DNA from: Streptomyces collinus Tu 365
GTDB taxonomy: Bacteria; Actinomycetota; Actinomycetes; Streptomycetales; Streptomycetaceae
NCBI RefSeq assembly: GCF_000444875.1
Contig: NC_021985.1
Coordinates: forward strand, 2,489,535 to 2,553,534
Direction: 5' to 3'
DNA length: 64,000 bases
Shown: one piece after another, positions 37,984-47,026 of the stretch
Layout of the letters: the number at the start of each line of letters is the position of its first letter
Position numbering within the stretch: the first letter of the stretch is position 1
The notes under the pieces: generated by a model
Databases searched by the model: none
Told to the model about the DNA's origin: nothing
What the model saw: the letters and a program-made list of their open reading frames with translations, nothing else
Program-made: the position numbers and the translations under genes

Positions 37984-38069
37984 GGCCAGCGCTCCGAGGG
38001 TCGACGATCACACGGCAGGCCACCAGCCTGCCACGGCACCCGCCCGCCGGCCGTTCCGGGGGCCTCGGC

Positions 38070-38537
38070 TTACAGCACGCGCCGCATCGACCGGTGCGGG
38101 ATCCCGGCGTCCAGGAACTCCGGGCCGTACGCCACGTAGCCCAGGCGCTCGTAGAAGCCCAGGGCCTGGGTCTGCGCGTGCAGGTCCACCGCGGTCAGGC
38201 CGTGCGCGCGGGCCGCCTCCTCGATGGCCCGCACCAGGGCCACGCCGATGCCCAGCCCGCGGGCCGCGCCGGCGACGGCGAGCCGCCCCAGCGAGCCCAC
38301 CGACGCGTCCCCGCCGGTCTTGGCGGCGGCCACCTCGCCGAACAGCAGGCGCCCGGTGCCGAGCGGCTCGCCGTCCTCGCGGACCGCGAGGACATGGACG
38401 GCGACGGCGTCGTACGCGTCGTACTCGATGTCCTGCGGGACGCCCTGCTCGGCGACGAACACCTCCTTGCGGATCGCGAAGCAGGCCTCGCGGTCGGCGG
38501 GGTCCTCGGCGATCCGGACGGTGACGGGCGCGCTCAC
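38070..38537 (-). CDS. GNAT-family N-acetyltransferase
   Basis: A 155-aa GNAT acetyltransferase related to the ElaA/YitI type: [22 protein letters not shown] at the N-terminus, the acetyl-CoA loop [22 protein letters not shown] (R/Q-x-x-G-x-G/A pattern) and [31 protein letters not shown] at the C-terminus. The start is GTG 38537, which overlaps the RluD-type gene stop (GTGA), so the two are translationally coupled. Substrate unknown. Confidence 0.92.
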
Positions 38538-39478
38538 GCGTAGGTCTCCTCGCGTACCTGGTCGAGGGCCTTGCTCAGGTCCTCCGGGTAGTCGCTCCCG
38601 AACTCCACCCACTGGCCGTCGCCCGGGTGCTCGAAGCCGAGCCGGACGGCGTGCAGCCACTGGCGGGACAGGCGCAGCCGCTTGGCGAGGGTCGGGTCGG
38701 CGCCGTAGGTGAGGTCGCCCACGCAGGGGTGGCGGTGGGCGGACATGTGGACGCGGATCTGGTGGGTGCGGCCGGTCTCCAGCTTCACGTCGAGCAGGGA
38801 GGCGGAGCGGAAGGCCTCGATGAGGTCGTAGTGGGTCACCGAGGGCTTGCCCTCGGCCGTGACCGCCCACTTGTAGTCGTGGTGCGGGTGCCGGCCGATG
38901 GGGGCGTCGATCGTGCCGCTCGTCGGGTCCGGGTGGCCCTGGACGAGGGTGTGGTAGCGCTTGTCGACCGTGCGCTCCTTGAACTGGCGCTTGAGCGAGG
39001 TGTACGCCCGCTCCGACTTGGCGACCACCATCAGGCCGGAGGTGCCGACGTCCAGGCGGTGCACGATGCCCTGGCGCTCGGCGGCGCCCGAGGTGGAGAT
39101 CCGGTACCCGGCGGCGGCGAGGCCGCCGATGACGGTCGGGCCGCTCCAGCCCGGCGAGGGGTGCGCGGCCACGCCGACCGGCTTGACGATCACGACCACG
39201 TCGTCGTCGTCGTGCACGATCTCCATGCCCTCGACCGGCTCGGCGACCACCTGCACGGGCGCGGGCGCCTGCGGCATCTCGACCTCGAGCCAGGCGCCTC
39301 CGTGCACCCGCTCCGACTTGCCGACCACCGCCCCGTCGACCTGGACCTTGCCGGCCGCGGCCAGGTCCGCCGCCTTGGTGCGGGAGAAGCCGAACATGCG
39401 GGAGATGGCGGCGTCGACGCGCTCGCCCTCCAGGCCGTCGGGCACGGGCAGGGTACGGATCTCGGGAATCGTGCTCAC
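38534..39478 (-). CDS. RluD/RluA-type 23S rRNA pseudouridine synthase
   Basis: A 314-aa enzyme: N-terminal S4 RNA-binding domain ([32 protein letters not shown], residues about 20-75) and catalytic domain with the RluA/RluD motif [19 protein letters not shown] (catalytic Asp near 142), [15 protein letters not shown] and [11 protein letters not shown]. It isomerises uridines in 23S rRNA, most likely at RluD-type positions in helix 69. The start is GTG 39478 (VSTIPEIR); 69 bp after lspA, the same direction. Confidence 0.92.
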
Positions 39479-39547
39479 CCGTCGAGTATGCCGGACGGCC
39501 GCGACGGCCCCGCACGAGCCTGTGGACAACCGGGTACGACCCGGGGC

Positions 39548-40183
39548 TCAGTCCTTGTGGACGGTGCCGTCCGGGTCCAGGCCGCGGAAGGACAGCAGCA
39601 CGATCAGGATGCCGCCGCAGACGATCGCCGAGTCGGCCAGGTTGAACACCGCGAAGCCCTTGGGCGCGATGAAGTCCACGACCTCGCCCTCGAAGATCCC
39701 GGGCGCCCGGAAGACGCGGTCGGTGAGGTTGCCGAGCGCGCCACCGAGCAGCAGGCCGAGCGCGATCGCCCAGGGGAAGCTGTAGAGCTTGCGCGCCAGG
39801 CGGATGATCACGACGATCACGGCGGCCGCGATCAGGGTGAAGATCACCGTGAAGGCCGCGCCGAAGCCGAAGGCCGCGCCGGGGTTGCGGATGGCGTGCA
39901 GCTCCAGCAGGTCGCCGACCAGCCGGATCGGCTCGCGGTGCTCCAGCTTCGCGACCACGAGCAGCTTGCTGATCAGGTCGAGGGCATAGGCGAAAGCGGC
40001 CACCGCGAACAGCACGGCGATCCTGCGCCCGCGTCCGGTCCGCCGCCCTGCCGGCGCCGCCGGCTCGCCCGCGCCGGACGGTCCGGACGCGCCCGGACCG
40101 TCGGGCGTCCCGGCGGCCGCCGCCCGCTCGCCGCCGTCGTCCGGGGTGTCCGGCGTACCGATGATGCGCTCCGCCTCTGCCAC
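39548..40183 (-). CDS. lspA: prolipoprotein signal peptidase (LspA)
   Basis: Type II signal peptidase that cleaves lipoprotein signal peptides after lipid attachment; 211 aa with a Pro/Gly/Ala-rich N-terminal extension of about 50 residues typical of actinobacteria. Four membrane helices; catalytic Asp residues in [12 protein letters not shown] and [13 protein letters not shown], and the conserved NPGAAFG loop. The start is ATG 40183. It lies between the DksA-type gene (66 bp upstream) and rluD in the same orientation. Confidence 0.95.
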
Positions 40184-40249
40184 GTGAGTCCCTCAACCTA
40201 GGTGCCTGACTGAGACGAGACTACGGCACGGTCCGGCGGACCCCGGTGC

Positions 40250-41875
40250 TCAGGAGCGGCGTTCCTGCTTCTGCTTGCACTCGACGCAGAGTGTGGCCCT
40301 GGGGAAGGCCTGCATGCGGGCCTTGCCGATCGGGTTGCCGCAGTTCTCGCACAGGCCGTAGGTGCCCGCGTCGAGCCGTTCCAGGGCGTGCTCGTTCTGC
40401 GTCAGCATCTCGCGCGCGTTGGCGGCCAGCGCCATCTCGTGCTCGCGCGTGATGTTCTTGGTGCCGGTGTCGGCCTGGTCGTCGCCCGCGCCGTCGCCGG
40501 AGTCCCGCATCAGGCCCACGAGGGACGCCTCGGAGGTGCTGATCTCGTTCCGCAGCCGCTCCACCTCGGACTGGAGCTCGGCCCGGGCCTCGGTGACCTC
40601 CTCCGGGGTCCAGGGGTCCTCGCCGGGACGCACCGCCAGCTCGCCCGGCTCCACCGCGGCGAGCCGTGCCTTGGGAACGGCGCCCTGCTCCGCCGTGGCC
40701 GTGCCAGGAGTCTTCTTCGCAACCACTGTCGTGGCTCCCGTCTGCTTCGCGGCCCGCGCCGCGCCCGCTTTCTTGGCCGTGCTCTTCCGGGCCGCCCCCG
40801 CGGAGGCTTCCCCGGCGACCGCTTTCCCGGTGCCGTCCTTCTCGCCGCCCGCCTTCCCGGTGGCCGTCCTCTGCGCGGCCGTCCTCTTCGAGGCCGCCGT
40901 CTTCCCGGTGCCCGCCCTCCCGGCGGCCTTCGCCTCTCCCCCGGCCGCCCCCTCGGCCTTCTCGGCCGCCGTCTTCCTCGCGGCCGTCCTGGCCGCCGCC
41001 GTCCTCCGGGCGGCCGGCTTCGGAGCGGCCGAAGGACTCGTCCCCTCGGCGGCCGCCGCCTCCCCGGTGACCGCTCCTCCGGGGACCGCCTCCTCGGCGC
41101 CCGCCACACCGGTGGCCACCTCCTCGGCGCCCGCCTTCTTCGCCGCCGCCTTCTTGGCCGCCGACCCCACACCCGTCGCCTTCTTCGCCGTCGCCGTCTT
41201 GGCCGCCGTCTTCCCCGAGCCCGCCTTGCCTTCCGCAGCCGTCTCGGTCCCCGACTTCCCGGAGGCCACCCCGCCGTGCGCCGCCGTTCCGGTGCCCGCC
41301 TTGCCCTGCGCCGCCTTCCCCGCCGTCGCCGTCCCGGTCCCCGCCGTTCCGGTGCCCGCCCTGCCGTCCGTCGCCTTCCCCGCCGCCTTACCGGCCGTCG
41401 TCCTACCGGTGGCCGTCCTGCCGTGCGCCGCCTTCTCAGCCGTCGTCCTCTTCGATGCGGGCGTGGCCGTCGCCGGTTCCCCGGCCGCCGCCCGCTCGGC
41501 CGTCCCCGCCCGCTTGTCCGTCGGCTTCTCCGCCGTTCTCCCGCCCGGCCCCCTGCCGGTCGGGCCGGTCTTCGCGGCCCCCTCGACCGCAGTCTTCTTC
41601 CCGGCCCCGGCAGTACTACCCCGCTTCCGGCCGCTTTCCTCCCCGGGGGGCGCCCCACCCGGGGCGGTGCCCGGCCCTGCGCCGGAGGACTTGCCAGCCG
41701 GTCCCCGGACCGTCCGCAGCGGCTCGGCGCGGCCCGCCGTGGCGTCGTCCGCGTGCGTGCCCTTCCCGTGGCCGGTCCGCTTGCGCCCGCCCGGGGACGC
41801 GGCCGTACCGGGGGCGTCCGCACCCCGGGAGCGGCCGGTCGCCGGCTGCTGTACGGCGGTCTTCTTCGCCACCAT
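40250..41875 (-). CDS. DksA/TraR zinc-finger protein with long basic tail
   Basis: A 541-aa protein. Only about the last 140 residues are a folded DksA/TraR domain: a helical coiled coil (EDPWTPEEVTEARAELQSEVERL, HEMALAANAREMLTQNEHALERL) and the zinc finger CENC-x17-CVEC with MQAFPRATLC. The first about 390 residues are low-complexity Lys/Ala/Gly/Thr repeats (AAKKAAAKKAGA, TGKTAASKRTAAQ-like), resembling histone H1 or HupS tails. Family members are usually 120-160 aa. It starts at ATG 41875 with AAGGGG upstream. Probably binds nucleic acid and/or RNA polymerase; the DksA domain function is inferred. Confidence 0.85.
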   Translation of the reverse strand: MVAKKTAVQQPATGRSRGADAPGTAASPGGRKRTGHGKGTHADDATAGRAEPLRTVRGPAGKSSGAGPGTAPGGAPPGEESGRKRGSTAGAGKKTAVEGAAKTGPTGRGPGGRTAEKPTDKRAGTAERAAAGEPATATPASKRTTAEKAAHGRTATGRTTAGKAAGKATDGRAGTGTAGTGTATAGKAAQGKAGTGTAAHGGVASGKSGTETAAEGKAGSGKTAAKTATAKKATGVGSAAKKAAAKKAGAEEVATGVAGAEEAVPGGAVTGEAAAAEGTSPSAAPKPAARRTAAARTAARKTAAEKAEGAAGGEAKAAGRAGTGKTAASKRTAAQRTATGKAGGEKDGTGKAVAGEASAGAARKSTAKKAGAARAAKQTGATTVVAKKTPGTATAEQGAVPKARLAAVEPGELAVRPGEDPWTPEEVTEARAELQSEVERLRNEISTSEASLVGLMRDSGDGAGDDQADTGTKNITREHEMALAANAREMLTQNEHALERLDAGTYGLCENCGNPIGKARMQAFPRATLCVECKQKQERRS

Positions 41876-41924
41876 GGCCGCGGCCCCTTCACATATTGTG
41901 ATCTTGCACGCGAATCGTGCTGGG

Positions 41925-41953
41925 ACGATAAATCGACTTGAGTCCCGCGGCAA
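41925..41953 (-). promoter_or_regulatory. sigma70-type promoter for the DksA-like gene
   Basis: On the minus strand TTGCCG (-35) and TATCGT (-10) with a 17-bp spacer, 50 bp upstream of the ATG at 41875, which would give a leader of about 40 nt. Confidence 0.55.
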
Positions 41954-42161
41954 CGGGGCACACCGCCCGATTCGCCCGCCCGCACCCCCCGCGCAGCGGA
42001 CCTGCATCCGTTGTGCCCCGCTCCCCGCCGGGTAATCCGGCAGGTCCGCCCGGCCGCGACGCCGGTCGCCGCGCCCGGCGCCATCCGGGTCACCCGGCCC
42101 GCTCCGGCCGGACGCCCGCGCGGGCCGCGAAAAGCGGTCGGCCGCTGTCCGCGCGGCGCCG

Positions 42162-42167
42162 TACACT
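42162..42167 (+). promoter_or_regulatory. candidate -10 box for ileS
   Basis: TACACT matches the TAnnnT -10 consensus just upstream of the T-box leader; transcription would begin near 42174. The -35 region is poor. The stretch 41954-42161 shows no gene or repeat. Confidence 0.5.
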
Positions 42168-42173
42168 GGGCGG

Positions 42174-42473
42174 AGCGAAAAGCGTGGATGGGGACGAGTA
42201 GCGACGTACGCAGCCCAGAGCGACCCGGGGACGGTGTGAGCCCGGGGGCGAGCGCGACGTGAAGATCACCCCGGAGCCGCCGGAAGAAAGCCGTGAAGAC
42301 CCGCGGCGAGTAGAACCGGCTCGCGACCCCAATGAGGGGGCCCAGCGGCGCGTACGGCACGCCGAGGGGCCAAGGAGGGTGGTACCGCGGGAGCGCGCCG
42401 CACACGGCGTAGACGATTGAAGGCTCTCGTCCCTCCGACGGAAGGCAGCAAGTCCGTTGGAGGATGCTCGCAG
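42174..42473 (+). ncRNA. T-box leader of ileS (Ile, translational type)
   Basis: A T-box riboswitch of about 300 nt. The conserved T-box sequence AGGGTGGTACCGCGG at 42376-42390 is a perfect match to the family core. Upstream, an AGTA motif at 42198-42201 faces GAAGATC (42261-42267), giving a specifier-loop-like bulge with specifier codon ATC (42265-42267), an isoleucine codon flanked by a GGGG/CCCC helix. Uncharged tRNAIle should stabilise the antisequestrator and expose the ribosome site. Actinobacterial ileS T-boxes are mostly translational, which fits this 3' end. Stem boundaries are my estimate. Confidence 0.9.
42432..42463 (+). promoter_or_regulatory. Shine-Dalgarno sequestering hairpin of the ileS T-box
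   Basis: CCTCCGACGG (42432-42441) can pair with CCGTTGGAGG (42454-42463), nine Watson-Crick pairs plus one G-U, burying the GGAGG ribosome site 10 nt before the ileS ATG. This is the OFF state expected of a translational T-box. Confidence 0.75.
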
Positions 42474-45400
42474 ATGACAGCGCCGACGTACCGCCAGGTG
42501 CCCGCCCAGGTCGACCTGCCCGCGCTTGAGCACGCGGTGCTCGACTTCTGGCGCGACCAGAAGATCTTCGCCAAGAGCCTGGAGCAGTCCGAGGGCCGCC
42601 CGGAGTGGGTGTTCTACGAAGGGCCGCCCACCGCCAACGGCATGCCCGGCGCCCACCACATCGAGGCACGCGTCTTCAAGGACGTCTTCCCCCGCTTCCG
42701 CACCATGCGCGGCTACCACGTGGGCCGCAAGGCCGGCTGGGACTGCCACGGCCTGCCCGTGGAGCTGGCGGTGGAGAAGGAGCTGGGCTTCTCCGGCAAG
42801 CAGGACATCGAGGCGTACGGCATCGCCGAGTTCAACGCCAAGTGCCGCGAGTCCGTGACCCGGCACACCGACGCCTTCGCCGAGCTGACCACCCGCATGG
42901 GGTACTGGGTCGACCTGGACGACGCCTACCGCACCATGGACCCCGAGTACGTGGAGTCGGTCTGGTGGTCACTGAAGGAGATCTTCGGCAAGGGCCTGCT
43001 GGTCCAGGACCACCGCGTCGCCCCGTGGTGCCCGCGCTGCGGCACCGGCCTGTCCGACCACGAGCTCGCCCAGGGCTACGAGACGGTCGTGGACCCGTCC
43101 GTGTACGTCCGCTTCCCGCTCACCTCGGGCCCGCTCGCCGGTGAGGCCGCGCTCCTGGTGTGGACGACGACCCCGTGGACCCTGGTGTCCAACACGGCGG
43201 TCGCCGCGCACCCCGGGGTCACCTACGTCGTCGCGACCGACGGCGAGGAGAAGGTCGTCGTCGCCGAGCCGCTCGTCGCCAAGGCGCTCGGTGAGGGCTG
43301 GGAGACCACCGGGCAGTCCTTCACCGGCGCCGAGATGGAGCGCTGGACCTACCGGCGCCCCTTCGAGCTGGTCGAGTTCCCGGCGCCCGCCCACTACGTG
43401 GTGAACGCCGACTACGTCACCACCGAGGACGGCACGGGTCTGGTCCACCAGTCCCCCGCCTTCGGTGAGGACGACCTCAAGGTCTGCCGCTCCTACGGCC
43501 TGCCCGTGGTGAACCCGGTCCGCCCCGACGGCACCTTCGAGGAGGACCTGCCGCTGGTCGGCGGCGTCTTCTTCAAGAAGGCCGACGAGCAGCTCACCGA
43601 GGACCTCAAGCAGCGCGGCCTGCTCTTCCGGCACCTGCCGTACGAGCACAGCTACCCGCACTGCTGGCGCTGCCACACCGCCCTGCTGTACTACGCGCAG
43701 CCCTCCTGGTACATCCGGACGACGGCGATCAAGGACCGCCTGATTCAGGAGAACGAGAAGACCAACTGGTTCCCGGACACGGTCAAGCACGGCCGTTACG
43801 GCGACTGGCTGAACAACAACATCGACTGGGCGCTCTCCCGCAACCGCTACTGGGGCACCCCGCTGCCGATCTGGCGCTGCGAGGACGACCACCTCACCTG
43901 TGTCGGCTCCCGCGCGGAGCTGACCGAGCTGACCGGCACCGACCAGTCGGGCCTCGACCCGCACCGCCCCTACATCGACGAGGTCACCTTCGCCTGCCGT
44001 CACGACGGCTGCGGGAAGACCGCCGTACGGGTTCCCGAGGTCATCGACGCCTGGTACGACTCGGGTTCGATGCCGTTCGCCCAGTGGGGTTACCCGTACA
44101 AGAACAAGGAGCTGTTCGAGAGCCGCTACCCGGCCCAGTTCATCTCCGAGGCGATCGACCAGACCCGCGGCTGGTTCTACACGCTGATGGCCGTCGGCAC
44201 CCTGGTGTTCGACCGGTCGTCGTACGAGAACGTCGTCTGCCTCGGCCACATCCTCGCCGAGGACGGCCGCAAGATGTCCAAGCACCTGGGCAACATCCTG
44301 CAGCCGATCCCGCTGATGGACCAGCACGGCGCGGACGCGGTGCGCTGGTTCATGGCGGCCGGCGGCTCCCCGTGGGCGGCCCGCCGGGTCGGTCACGGCA
44401 CCATCCAGGAGGTCGTCCGCAAGACCCTGCTGACGTACTGGAACACGGTGGCCTTCCAGGCCCTGTACGCCCGTACGTCGGACTGGGCGCCGTCAGCGGC
44501 GGACCCGGCCCCGGCCGAGCGCCCGCTGATCGACCGCTGGCTGCTGTCCGAGCTGCACGCGCTCACCGACCAGGTGACCCAGGCCCTGGAGGCGTACGAC
44601 ACCCAGCGCGCCGGCAAGCTGCTGTCCGCGTTCGTCGACGACCTGTCCAACTGGTACGTCCGCCGTTCGCGCCGCCGTTTCTGGCAAGGCGACAAGGCCG
44701 CGCTGCGCACGCTGCACGAGGTGCTGGAGACGGTCACCAAGCTCATGGCCCCGATCACCCCGTTCATCACCGAGCGGGTGTGGCAGGACCTGGTCGTGCC
44801 GGTGACGCCGGGCGCCCCGGAGTCCGTGCACCTGGCCCCCTGGCCGGAGGCGGACCTCTCCGCCATCGACCCGGAGCTGTCGAAGCAGATGGTCCTGGTC
44901 CGCCGGCTGGTGGAGCTGGGCCGTGCCACGCGCGCGGAGTCGGGCGTCAAGACCCGCCAGCCGCTGTCCCGGGCGCTGATCGCCGCGACCGGCTTCGAGG
45001 CCCTGGACCGGGAGCTGCACGCCCAGATCACCGAGGAGCTGAACGTCTCCTCCCTGGCCTCGCTGTCCGAGGTCGGCGGCTCGCTGGTGGACACCACCGC
45101 CAAGGCCAACTTCCGCGCGCTGGGCAAGCGGTTCGGCAAGCGGGTGCAGGACGTGGCCAAGGCCGTCGCCGCCGCCGACGCCGCCGCGCTGTCGCTGGCG
45201 CTGCGCGAGGGCACGGCGTCGGTGGAGGTCGACGGCGAGACGGTCGCCCTCGCCCCCGACGAGGTGATCATCACGGAGACCCCGCGCGAGGGCTGGTCGG
45301 TGGCCTCCGACTCCGGTGCCACCGTGGCGCTGGACCTGGAGATCACCGAGGAGCTGCGGCAGGCGGGCCTGGCCCGTGACGCGATCCGGCTGATCCAGGA

Positions 45401-45617
45401 GGCCCGCAAGAACAGCGGCCTGGACGTCGCCGACCGGATCGCCCTGCGCTGGACCTCCACGGACCCGGCGGTCGTCGCGGCCCTGGCCGAGCACAGCGGG
45501 CTGATCGCCGAGGAGGTCCTGGCGACCGACTTCGCCCAGGGCGAGGCGGACGCCGGCTTCGGTGAGCCGTTCACCGACGAGGGTCTGTCCCTCGTCTTCC
45601 GGCTGCGCAAGGCGTAA
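42474..45617 (+). CDS. ileS: isoleucyl-tRNA synthetase, type 2-like with GAHH motif
   Basis: Charges tRNAIle; 1047 aa, a class I synthetase with Rossmann catalytic domain, CP1 editing domain (GTGLVHQSPAFGEDD, editing Asp), KMSKHLGN loop and C-terminal anticodon-binding domain. It is the eukaryote-like type 2 form by N-terminal motif GPPTANGMPGAHH. In place of the class HIGH signature (HxGH) it has G-A-H-H: first and third positions exchanged. Swapped motifs of this kind are linked to high mupirocin resistance in type 2 IleRS. Start ATG 42474 after the T-box leader. Confidence 0.94.
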   Translation: MTAPTYRQVPAQVDLPALEHAVLDFWRDQKIFAKSLEQSEGRPEWVFYEGPPTANGMPGAHHIEARVFKDVFPRFRTMRGYHVGRKAGWDCHGLPVELAVEKELGFSGKQDIEAYGIAEFNAKCRESVTRHTDAFAELTTRMGYWVDLDDAYRTMDPEYVESVWWSLKEIFGKGLLVQDHRVAPWCPRCGTGLSDHELAQGYETVVDPSVYVRFPLTSGPLAGEAALLVWTTTPWTLVSNTAVAAHPGVTYVVATDGEEKVVVAEPLVAKALGEGWETTGQSFTGAEMERWTYRRPFELVEFPAPAHYVVNADYVTTEDGTGLVHQSPAFGEDDLKVCRSYGLPVVNPVRPDGTFEEDLPLVGGVFFKKADEQLTEDLKQRGLLFRHLPYEHSYPHCWRCHTALLYYAQPSWYIRTTAIKDRLIQENEKTNWFPDTVKHGRYGDWLNNNIDWALSRNRYWGTPLPIWRCEDDHLTCVGSRAELTELTGTDQSGLDPHRPYIDEVTFACRHDGCGKTAVRVPEVIDAWYDSGSMPFAQWGYPYKNKELFESRYPAQFISEAIDQTRGWFYTLMAVGTLVFDRSSYENVVCLGHILAEDGRKMSKHLGNILQPIPLMDQHGADAVRWFMAAGGSPWAARRVGHGTIQEVVRKTLLTYWNTVAFQALYARTSDWAPSAADPAPAERPLIDRWLLSELHALTDQVTQALEAYDTQRAGKLLSAFVDDLSNWYVRRSRRRFWQGDKAALRTLHEVLETVTKLMAPITPFITERVWQDLVVPVTPGAPESVHLAPWPEADLSAIDPELSKQMVLVRRLVELGRATRAESGVKTRQPLSRALIAATGFEALDRELHAQITEELNVSSLASLSEVGGSLVDTTAKANFRALGKRFGKRVQDVAKAVAAADAAALSLALREGTASVEVDGETVALAPDEVIITETPREGWSVASDSGATVALDLEITEELRQAGLARDAIRLIQEARKNSGLDVADRIALRWTSTDPAVVAALAEHSGLIAEEVLATDFAQGEADAGFGEPFTDEGLSLVFRLRKA

Positions 45618-45624
45618 GCGGGAC

Positions 45625-45672
45625 CACGCGAAGGGCCCGGCCCCCTGCTCGGGGGGCCGGGCCCTTCGCGTG
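45625..45672 (+). terminator. strong terminator after ileS
   Basis: A perfect 21-bp stem (CACGCGAAGGGCCCGGCCCCC and its complement, split as 45625-45645 and 45652-45672) with a 6-nt loop, 8 bp after the ileS stop. One of the strongest hairpins in the window. Confidence 0.9.
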
Positions 45673-45711
45673 GGTGCGCATGTCCGGCGCACCCGGCTCA
45701 ACACGCGTAAA

Positions 45712-45749
45712 AGGGCGGGGCCCCGGACCGAAGTCCGGGGCCCCGCCCT
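45712..45749 (-). terminator. intrinsic terminator after divIVA
   Basis: A perfect 17-bp stem with a CGAA tetraloop (45712-45728 and 45733-45749). On the minus strand it is followed by TTTT, so it looks like a true intrinsic terminator for divIVA and the dcw message. Confidence 0.88.
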
Positions 45750-45792
45750 CGATGAACGCTGCCGACGCCCTTGTCGTACTAGTGCTCGATAC

Positions 45793-46971
45793 TCAGTTGT
45801 CGTCCTCGTCGATCAGGAACCCGCGCATCGGCGAGGGCGCCTGGCCCATCGGGGACGGACCCTGCGGACGGACCGGAGCCATGGGCTGGGTCATCGCGGG
45901 GGTCATCTGCTGCTGGCCGCCGTAGGACGGGGCGGACGGCGCGGACGGGCCGCCCATTCCCTGGTTTCCGCCGTAGGACGGGGCGCTCGCGCCGGCCGGA
46001 GCCATCGAGGGCGCCGGGGACGGCGGCAGGGACGCGGTGGCCGGAGTGCGCGGCGGCGCCAGGGAGTCGTCGGCCTGGGTCTCCAGCTGACGCAGCTGGG
46101 ACTCGAGGTACGACTTCAGACGCGTGCGGTACTCGCGCTCGAAGCCGCGCAGGTCCTCGACCTTGCGCTCCAGCGTGGCGCGGGCGGACTCCAGGGAGCC
46201 CATCGCGACGCGGTGCTTCTCCTGCGCGTCCCGCTCCAGGGCGTCGGCCTTGGCACGGGCGTCACGCTCCAGACCCTCGGCGCGGCTGCGGGCCTCACCG
46301 ACGATCTTGTTGGCCTCGGAGCGGGCCTCGGCGATCGCCTGGTCGGCGGTCTGCTGGGCCAGCGAGAGGACACGCGCGGCGCTGTCGCCACCGGGACCCT
46401 GACCGGGGCCGCCCATCGGACCGCCCATGGGGCCGCCCATCGGGCCACCCATCTGCTGCTGCATGGGCGGCTGACCGCCCATGGGGCCCTGACCCATCGG
46501 ACCCTGGCCCATCGGACCCTGACCCATCGGACCCTGGCCCATGGGGCCCTGACCCATCGGACCCTGACCCATCGGACCCTGACCCTGCGGGCCGCCCTGG
46601 CTGCTGGGGCCGGCAGGCAGCTGCGGGGCACCGCTCGGCAGCTGGGGCGGGCCACCCATGGGGCCACCCATCTGCTGCTGCGGCGGGCCCGATATGCCGG
46701 CGGGCACCGGCGCGCCGGGACCTCGCATGCCCTGCTGCTGAGGATGCGGCTGGTCCTGCTCCGGAGGCTTGCGCATGTTCTGCTGGTTCTGCGCAGCAGC
46801 GCGCGTGGCCGCGGCCAGCTTGGCGCGCAGGTCCTCGTTCTCGCGGAGCAGACGGGTCAGCTCGGCTTCGACCTCGTCGAGGAAGGCATCGACCTCGTCC
46901 TCGTCATAGCCTTCTCGGAGGCGGACGGTCGTGAACTGCTTGTTCCGCACGTCCTCGGGGGTCAACGGCAT
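45793..46971 (-). CDS. divIVA: DivIVA polar growth scaffold
   Basis: A coiled-coil scaffold that marks the hyphal tip and drives polar wall growth in streptomycetes; 392 aa. The N-terminal DivIVA domain is [42 protein letters not shown]-like with a coiled coil to residue about 60; a Gly/Pro/Gln/Met-rich linker of about 130 residues contains seven QGPMG units; a second long coiled coil lies at about 205-295 ([28 protein letters not shown]); the tail is disordered with [16 protein letters not shown] at the end. The ATG 46971 has GAGGTG upstream. Confidence 0.95.
46478..46582 (-). repeat. 15-bp tandem repeat within divIVA
   Basis: Seven copies of a 15-bp unit, CCCAT-containing, at exact 15-bp steps (46478, 46493, 46508, 46523, 46538, 46553, 46568), encoding repeated QGPMG. 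Synonymous changes differ between copies, so it is partly old. Likely to vary in copy number. Confidence 0.85.
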
Positions 46972-47026
46972 CTCTTCACCTCAACGTAGTCATCGGCAGT
47001 CGGCAAGACCGTATCGTCCATCCTCA

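Follow-up and report, generated by a model that had tools for sequence, protein, structure and literature searches.

The ddbA gene of Streptomyces collinus Tu 365 was found to carry a Shine-Dalgarno (SD)-like sequence and an in-frame GTG codon at the junction between its long basic tail and its DksA-like domain. Across aligned orthologous sequences, this SD and GTG are conserved at the level of bases, beyond the protein. It is quite probable from this comparison that ddbA is one gene for two proteins from one reading frame, with a tail-less short form in addition to the long form. The conserved internal SD and proposed start codon are the new part of the finding; the long-tailed architecture is already known and widespread, and is not presented as new. 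The window (the whole 64,000-nt stretch of DNA that was analysed) covers positions 2,489,535 to 2,553,534 of contig NC_021985.1. The features of the locus are as follows, in window coordinates.

41925..41953, minus strand: promoter-like element TTGCCG-17-TATCGT, present in 108/108 loci with a placed start
41884..41889, minus strand: ribosome-binding site AAGGGG of the upstream start
40250..41875, minus strand: ddbA orthologue, full-length coding sequence in a single frame of 541 codons (541 aa), ATG at 41875, stop at 40250-40252
40727..41875, minus strand: N-terminal low-complexity basic tail, residues 1-383, net charge +39, by composition
40735..40739, minus strand: internal Shine-Dalgarno-like GGGAG, from the third base of codon 379 to the first base of codon 381
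40724..40726, minus strand: proposed internal start codon GTG, codon 384, GTG in 112/112 loci
40250..40726, minus strand: proposed short isoform of 158 aa, tail-less and DksA-like by AlphaFold model and fold matches
40463..40480, minus strand: coiled-coil tip motif DQADTG (at the DksA DxxDxA position), residues 466-471
40259..40366, minus strand: C4 zinc finger PF01258 (zf-dskA_traR), residues 504-539, by Pfam
39548-40183: lspA, downstream of ddbA
38534-39484: pseudouridine synthase, downstream of ddbA

Identity of the gene

The window gene is ddbA by architecture. DdbA (SCO2075) is said to have been described by Aldridge in 2013 as a "bifunctional histone" of Streptomyces. Like DdbA of S. coelicolor, the window's protein has a long basic low-complexity N-terminal tail followed by a C-terminal DksA-like domain. 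S. violaceoruber NRRL S-981 (L067), which we take to be close to S. coelicolor, has a copy with 91% domain identity to that of the window and with identical GGA and GTG codons at its junction. In the available part of one review, DdbA is described as a nucleoid protein with two functions, whose N-terminal domain is histone H1-like and whose C-terminal domain is of the DksA kind (PMC9043899). A table in the available part of another review lists it as SCO2075, with a deletion that affects chromosome compaction and spore stress resistance (PMC11942623). The probable link of the window gene to SCO2075 draws on architecture and on that table as excerpted (PMC11942623). DdbA is also treated in the accessible part of PMC11229371, and another DksA-like protein, SCO6164, is named in that of PMC9739823. 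The DNA-binding role that the initial annotation thought possible for the tail is likely, in line with what the excerpts of two of these reviews tell of DdbA (PMC9043899, PMC11942623). By extension from these accounts, the tail probably binds DNA in the window's strain as well.

Reading frame, upstream start and neighbourhood

Orthologues were sought in 61 genomes, the window's own among them. A match at E <= 0.001 was present in 60/61, and strong matches (E <= 1.7e-41) were present in 57/61 by manual count. Further loci came from named genome contigs, of which the best 80 out of 272 were taken. In one genome (G017, 99% complete, 1140 contigs), the DksA-type matches were weak only (best E 7.3e-9) and no ddbA orthologue was found, which could be an assembly gap.

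The initial annotation had placed the protein at 40700-41875. This interval corresponds to the tail, that is, to the N-terminal 392 codons, and the gene itself is longer (40250-41875). The ddbA frame is supported by the GC content of the tail, which reaches 0.90 at the third codon position and only 0.68 and 0.76 at the first and second (0.71, 0.50, and 0.95 for positions 1 to 3 in the domain). The upstream start was placed by an exact GAAGGGG-N-CG site, which succeeded in 108 of 137 loci. The 29 loci without a placed start are the 22 loci L038-L059 together with L031, L067, L073, L104, L106, L120, and L141. These loci lack an exact in-frame GAAGGGG-N-CG site, run into a contig end, or, like L104, have their frame broken. 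Leaving out 3 duplicate proteins from the 108 start-placed loci gives 105 distinct orthologues. An earlier start rule was dropped because it yielded implausibly long proteins for L070 and L103.

The region upstream of ddbA is strongly conserved among orthologues, whose N-termini are MVAKKTAVQQ-like. The promoter that had been proposed at 41925-41953 proved to be a conserved element: TTGCCG-(16-18)-TATCGT was found in every start-placed locus and ends 48-50 nt before the ATG. In the window, the two hexamers lie at 41948-41953 and 41925-41930. A strict sigma-70 scan (at least 9 of 12 positions) over 40100-42600 found no promoter, and these hexamers match sigma-70 at 8 of 12 positions by manual count, below the threshold of that scan. 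The conserved block ahead of the start, made of the GAAGGGG site and the promoter-like element, supports the upstream ATG. A frameshift or a wrong start was rejected because conservation extends to the frame, the start, the ribosome site, and the promoter-like element. The concern that an alternative start might leave the C-terminal domain alone turned out to be half right: the upstream start is not replaced, but a conserved candidate internal start exists in addition to it. In the assembly of Streptomyces tuirus (L104), an interruption of the ddbA frame lies between the start and the domain while the junction and domain are intact; this is taken as an assembly or strain oddity.

Upstream of ddbA lies ileS, named from its translation, which is divergent from ddbA as annotated and starts at ~42474. 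A permissive Rfam search covering 41876-42500 placed a T-box leader ahead of ileS at 42176-42437 on the plus strand (RF00230, E 1.4e-8; its 44.6 bits fall short of the gathering score of 93), and the leader carries the AGGGUGGUACCGCG box. A DivIVA homologue further along the window (45793-46971, minus strand) contains a 15-bp tandem repeat at 46478-46585 with 7.2 copies, giving GPMGQ units.

The low-complexity tail

The tail, annotated as a basic extension of about 390 residues rich in Ala, Gly, Thr, and Lys, is borne out by composition. It is 383-405 residues long by choice of end point, with a net charge of +39 to +42. Residues 1-392 consist of 28% Ala, 19% Gly, 14% Thr, 10.7% Lys, and 6.6% Arg with a net charge of +41, and residues 1-383 contain a single Leu and lack Phe, Trp, Tyr, and Ile. 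Comparison of tail length across relatives, which had been suggested as a check, showed that nearly all orthologues examined in the window's genus have a tail, with the exception of L038, which goes against the refuting possibility that every relative might lack one. Among the 105 distinct orthologues, the protein ranges from 236 to 741 residues (median 340), the tail from 100 to 605 residues (median 204), and the net tail charge per residue from 0.06 to 0.25 (median 0.15). The claim that the size of the tail is unusual was not upheld, because the architecture is widespread and published and the window's copy is long but not extreme. Its tail of 405 residues stands against the median of 204, and it is the seventh longest of the 105, with 6 longer.

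The description of the tail as histone-like is weaker for the window's copy because its Lys content is lower than in most orthologues (the Lys fraction is smaller in 6/105 only). Its Gly content is high, with 1/105 higher. Thus, unlike typical DdbA orthologues, the window's protein has a tail that is longer and poorer in Lys. A constant number of tail charges was not supported, as longer tails carry more net charge (Spearman 0.84, log-log slope 0.86, 105 orthologues). Charge density drops slightly with length (rho -0.25, 105 orthologues).

In 60 close orthologue pairs, tail gaps came in multiples of three in 290/312 cases. Tail mismatches by codon position were 3030, 2934, and 2694, in pairs that are not independent and in a low-complexity alignment that is noisy, and domain mismatches in the same pairs were 232, 190, and 1064. 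The even spread of tail mismatches across codon positions suggests that the tail sequence is nearly free apart from frame and composition. In other words, there looks to be hardly any constraint on individual residues, with frame and composition kept. Degenerate tandem repeats of 45 and 60 bp occur within the ddbA tail at 41188-41387, and 15-bp repeats also occur in the tail. These repeats suggest that the tail may lengthen by slippage, of which they are a likely trace.

A conserved candidate start site at the tail/domain junction

Codons 379-390 of the window's gene read ACG GGA GCC ACG ACA GTG GTT GCG AAG AAG ACT CCT. GGGAG is followed by 8 nt and then by GTG. Codon columns were compared in 112 distinct loci (115 Streptomyces/Kitasatospora-type loci minus 3 duplicates), excluding the 22 loci L038-L059, which belong to other genera or, in the case of the tail-less L038, to the window's genus. 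The 112 loci are kin rather than independent events, and the control is therefore given by other columns of the same genes. G380 is GGA in 112/112 loci as against 3.5% of the Gly codons in codons 407-541 of these loci, and V384 is GTG in 112/112 as against 49% of the Val codons there. Codon 385 is GTT in 82 of 87 valines, as against 0.2% of Val codons in the domain. The residue at codon 385 varies (Val in 87, Ala in 17, Gly in 8) but its third base is T or A in 110/112, which argues that bases, and not the amino acid, are under constraint. Codon 379 ends in G or A in 111/111, a purine that extends the SD. The largest departures from codon usage in 175 columns fall, in order, on codons 385, 380, 390, and 389, with GC3 values of 0.02, 0.00, 0.35, and 0.35 where the domain median is 0.98. 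At positions 389 and 390, too, codons ending in T are favoured (ACT in 72/101 and CCT in 61/78, respectively, in the alignment of 112 loci), something that a start site does not call for.

Further evidence comes from SD pairing. A start codon together with an SD (dG <= -5 kcal/mol) was present at column 384 in 111/111 loci and at any other of the 175 columns in 16/112 at most. SD pairing at the junction averaged -6.6 kcal/mol as against -2.7 for synonymous shuffles (103 of the 112 loci). RNA structure around the GTG was -10.3 kcal/mol as against -12.0 in synonymous shuffles, of which 28% were as weak, a slight hint that the RNA may be unfolded at the internal start. In the window, two other in-frame GTG codons of the tail have SD scores of -10.6 (codon 257) and -6.4 (codon 253), with -6.6 for codon 384; the tail is too variable for codons 253 and 257 to be aligned.

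The junction was also searched as a protein pattern. A first pattern matched 100/137 loci and was superseded by the codon alignment. A pattern with codons left free matched in 172/295 genomes of the genus, a count that misses genomes with differing residues. A match with a glycine codon other than GGA was found in 1/295, in a search that varied the glycine codon alone and not the GTG. This sole match (G219:C9) lies at a different place from the GGA-bearing match of its genome.

Relatives outside the main set carry comparable sites in part. In one genus of a second family, an ATG with AAGGAG occurs at the same junction in 10/10 loci and would give a short form of 144-145 residues; the tail is coding in these loci, with 56/56 gaps in multiples of three. 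In four loci from two further genera of this second family (L040, L053, L056, and L057), tails are shorter and no junction start was found. Of six class-level relatives (L049, L050, L054, L055, L058, and L059), a candidate start near the domain was seen in L058 only. In L038 (G010), which belongs to the window's genus, the promoter-like element is retained but the basic tail is missing; possible starts lie 141 or 145 codons ahead of the stop. L039 encodes a form of 156 residues, about 21 of which are tail. Together, L038 and L039 indicate that a DksA-like protein without a long tail occurs in nature. The locus L002 (G000:C1:7623549-7626644) holds a second, ordinary-size DksA/TraR-type protein of the window's own genome, in a stop-to-stop frame of 175 codons.

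Do the conserved bases serve to start a second protein? The best rival to the reading with two isoforms is a translational pause: one protein only would be made, and GGA, GTT, ACT, and CCT would form a rare-codon, SD-like pause at the tail/domain boundary that aids folding or tunnel clearance. Pausing at intragenic SD-like sequences has been discussed, and the four rare codons do lie at the domain boundary, with codons 389-390 included. However, a pause leaves unexplained why codon 384 is the common codon GTG and never GTC in 112/112 loci, and why codon 379 ends in a purine in 111/111, given that Thr is most often encoded by ACC in the rest of the domain (65%). The spacing of SD, 8 nt, and GTG is that of a start site, and the second-family genus has an ATG with AAGGAG at the same place in all 10 loci. 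We therefore consider the pause unlikely.

Ordinary DdbA alone, in which a DksA-like regulator is held on DNA by its H1-like tail and the internal site has no meaningful use, would agree with the descriptions of DdbA in the excerpted reviews (PMC11942623, PMC9043899) and with the slightly better mean SD of the upstream start (-7.5 as against -6.6 for the internal site), but it leaves the conservation of synonymous sites unexplained and appears very unlikely. Least probable of all is an internal promoter, RNA-processing site, or regulator-binding site within ddbA: base-level conservation by itself names no cause and the constrained codons 389, 390, and 400 fall outside the SD and start, but both invariant elements are what a start site would have, no Rfam family was found at gathering score over 38000-47000, and the promoter scan of 40100-42600 was empty, a result of little weight since that scan missed the element at 41925-41953 too.

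The reading with two isoforms would place the putative short protein's N-terminus at (f)MVAKKTPGTATA. Ribosomes would initiate at GTG 40726, and the short form would accumulate beside the long one, each with a function of its own. Nested in-frame isoforms from internal starts are known in bacteria, for example in infB and cheA. As in those genes, an in-frame SD and start codon are predicted to give an N-terminally shortened product; unlike in those genes, the ddbA start would split a chromosome-binding tail from an RNA-polymerase-type domain. For DdbA, the available parts of the reviews cited above mention neither a conserved internal start nor a short isoform. No report of a short DdbA form was found in the literature searched; the 2013 report by Aldridge, which lay outside the search, may contain one.

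The DksA-like domain

The C-terminal DksA/TraR-type domain that had been annotated was recovered by Pfam at E <= 0.001, where PF01258 was the only match (residues 504-539, E 5.7e-13, model positions 1-36 of 36). The four zinc-binding cysteines of the DksA type are present. The NCBIfam cut-offs were missed both for DksA (61.9 vs 115.5 for TIGR02420 and 60.2 vs 105 for NF033459) and for TraR (40.0 vs 59.7 for TIGR02419). An AlphaFold model of the putative short isoform, built on 41 aligned short sequences, has two long helices, a tip, a zinc finger, and a final helix, with a mean pLDDT of 77.6 and the first 24 residues below 50. The best four PDB chains for this model are all DksA (Z 12.3 to 11.4 over ~120 residues); the match to E. 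coli DksA (1tjl) has Z 12.1 and an rmsd of 2.7 over 120 residues at 26% identity, on a scale where Z below ~13 can mean a mere common arrangement of long helices. From rank 5 on, the matches look like unrelated long helical structures, except for Chlamydia DksA (6ptg, rank 11). Because such unrelated-looking helical hairpins reach Z 10.8, the sequence matches weigh more than the fold matches.

Like E. coli DksA, the domain combines a coiled coil bearing Asp at its tip with a C4 zinc finger, and the putative short isoform would be of similar size (158 aa vs 151). DksA positions were assigned in the 112 loci by HMMER alignment to E. coli DksA and by distance from the first zinc Cys. D71 and D74 are kept in 112/112 and A76 is Gly in 112/112. 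Thus, unlike that of E. coli DksA, the tip of the window's family reads DxxDxG and not DxxDxA. The domain resembles TraR of the F plasmid in having the same kind of zinc finger, with CEACGNPI, and a Phe at the place of DksA R129. TraR, which is not known to have a long coiled coil or to need ppGpp, differs in its length of 72 residues as against 541 or (putatively) 158 for the ddbA products.

The available part of a structural source gives K98, R91, K139, L95, and R129 as the ppGpp contacts of DksA, and reports that K98A or R129A abolishes binding at site 2 with RNA polymerase binding unaffected (PMC7676912). Of this set, only K139 is kept in the ddbA family (112/112). K98 is replaced by Gln and R129 by Phe in 112/112, R91 by Asn in 107, and L95 by Met in 104 of the 112 loci. 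Since four of the five contact residues are replaced, we infer that the domain would bind polymerase without use of ppGpp at site 2, in which it would resemble TraR. The excerpted review table, in which DdbA modulates RNA polymerase "combined with ppGpp" (PMC11942623), speaks against such independence of site 2, unless ppGpp acts through site 1.

A proposed switch and its implications

Initiation at ATG 41875 would give the known long form, with a disordered basic tail and a DksA-like domain. The tail would hold DNA non-specifically, and the domain of this form could still enter the secondary channel of RNA polymerase. Initiation at the internal GTG (40726) would yield a tail-less protein of 158 residues, similar in size to an ordinary DksA, which would be free to act on RNA polymerase, untied from the nucleoid. 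The ratio of long to short form would then set the share of DksA-like activity that is bound to the chromosome. On balance, we find it reasonably likely that ddbA acts as such a two-protein switch between a histone-tailed, nucleoid-bound form and a free form that makes no use of ppGpp at site 2, with a similar arrangement in the second-family genus built on a different start site.

In spores, DdbA has been proposed as a link between chromosome packing and transcription. If two proteins are indeed made, the published phenotypes of ddbA deletion would mix the loss of both, and the link between packing and transcription would become a tunable ratio. Streptomyces would also gain a DksA-like factor that apparently does not need ppGpp at site 2.
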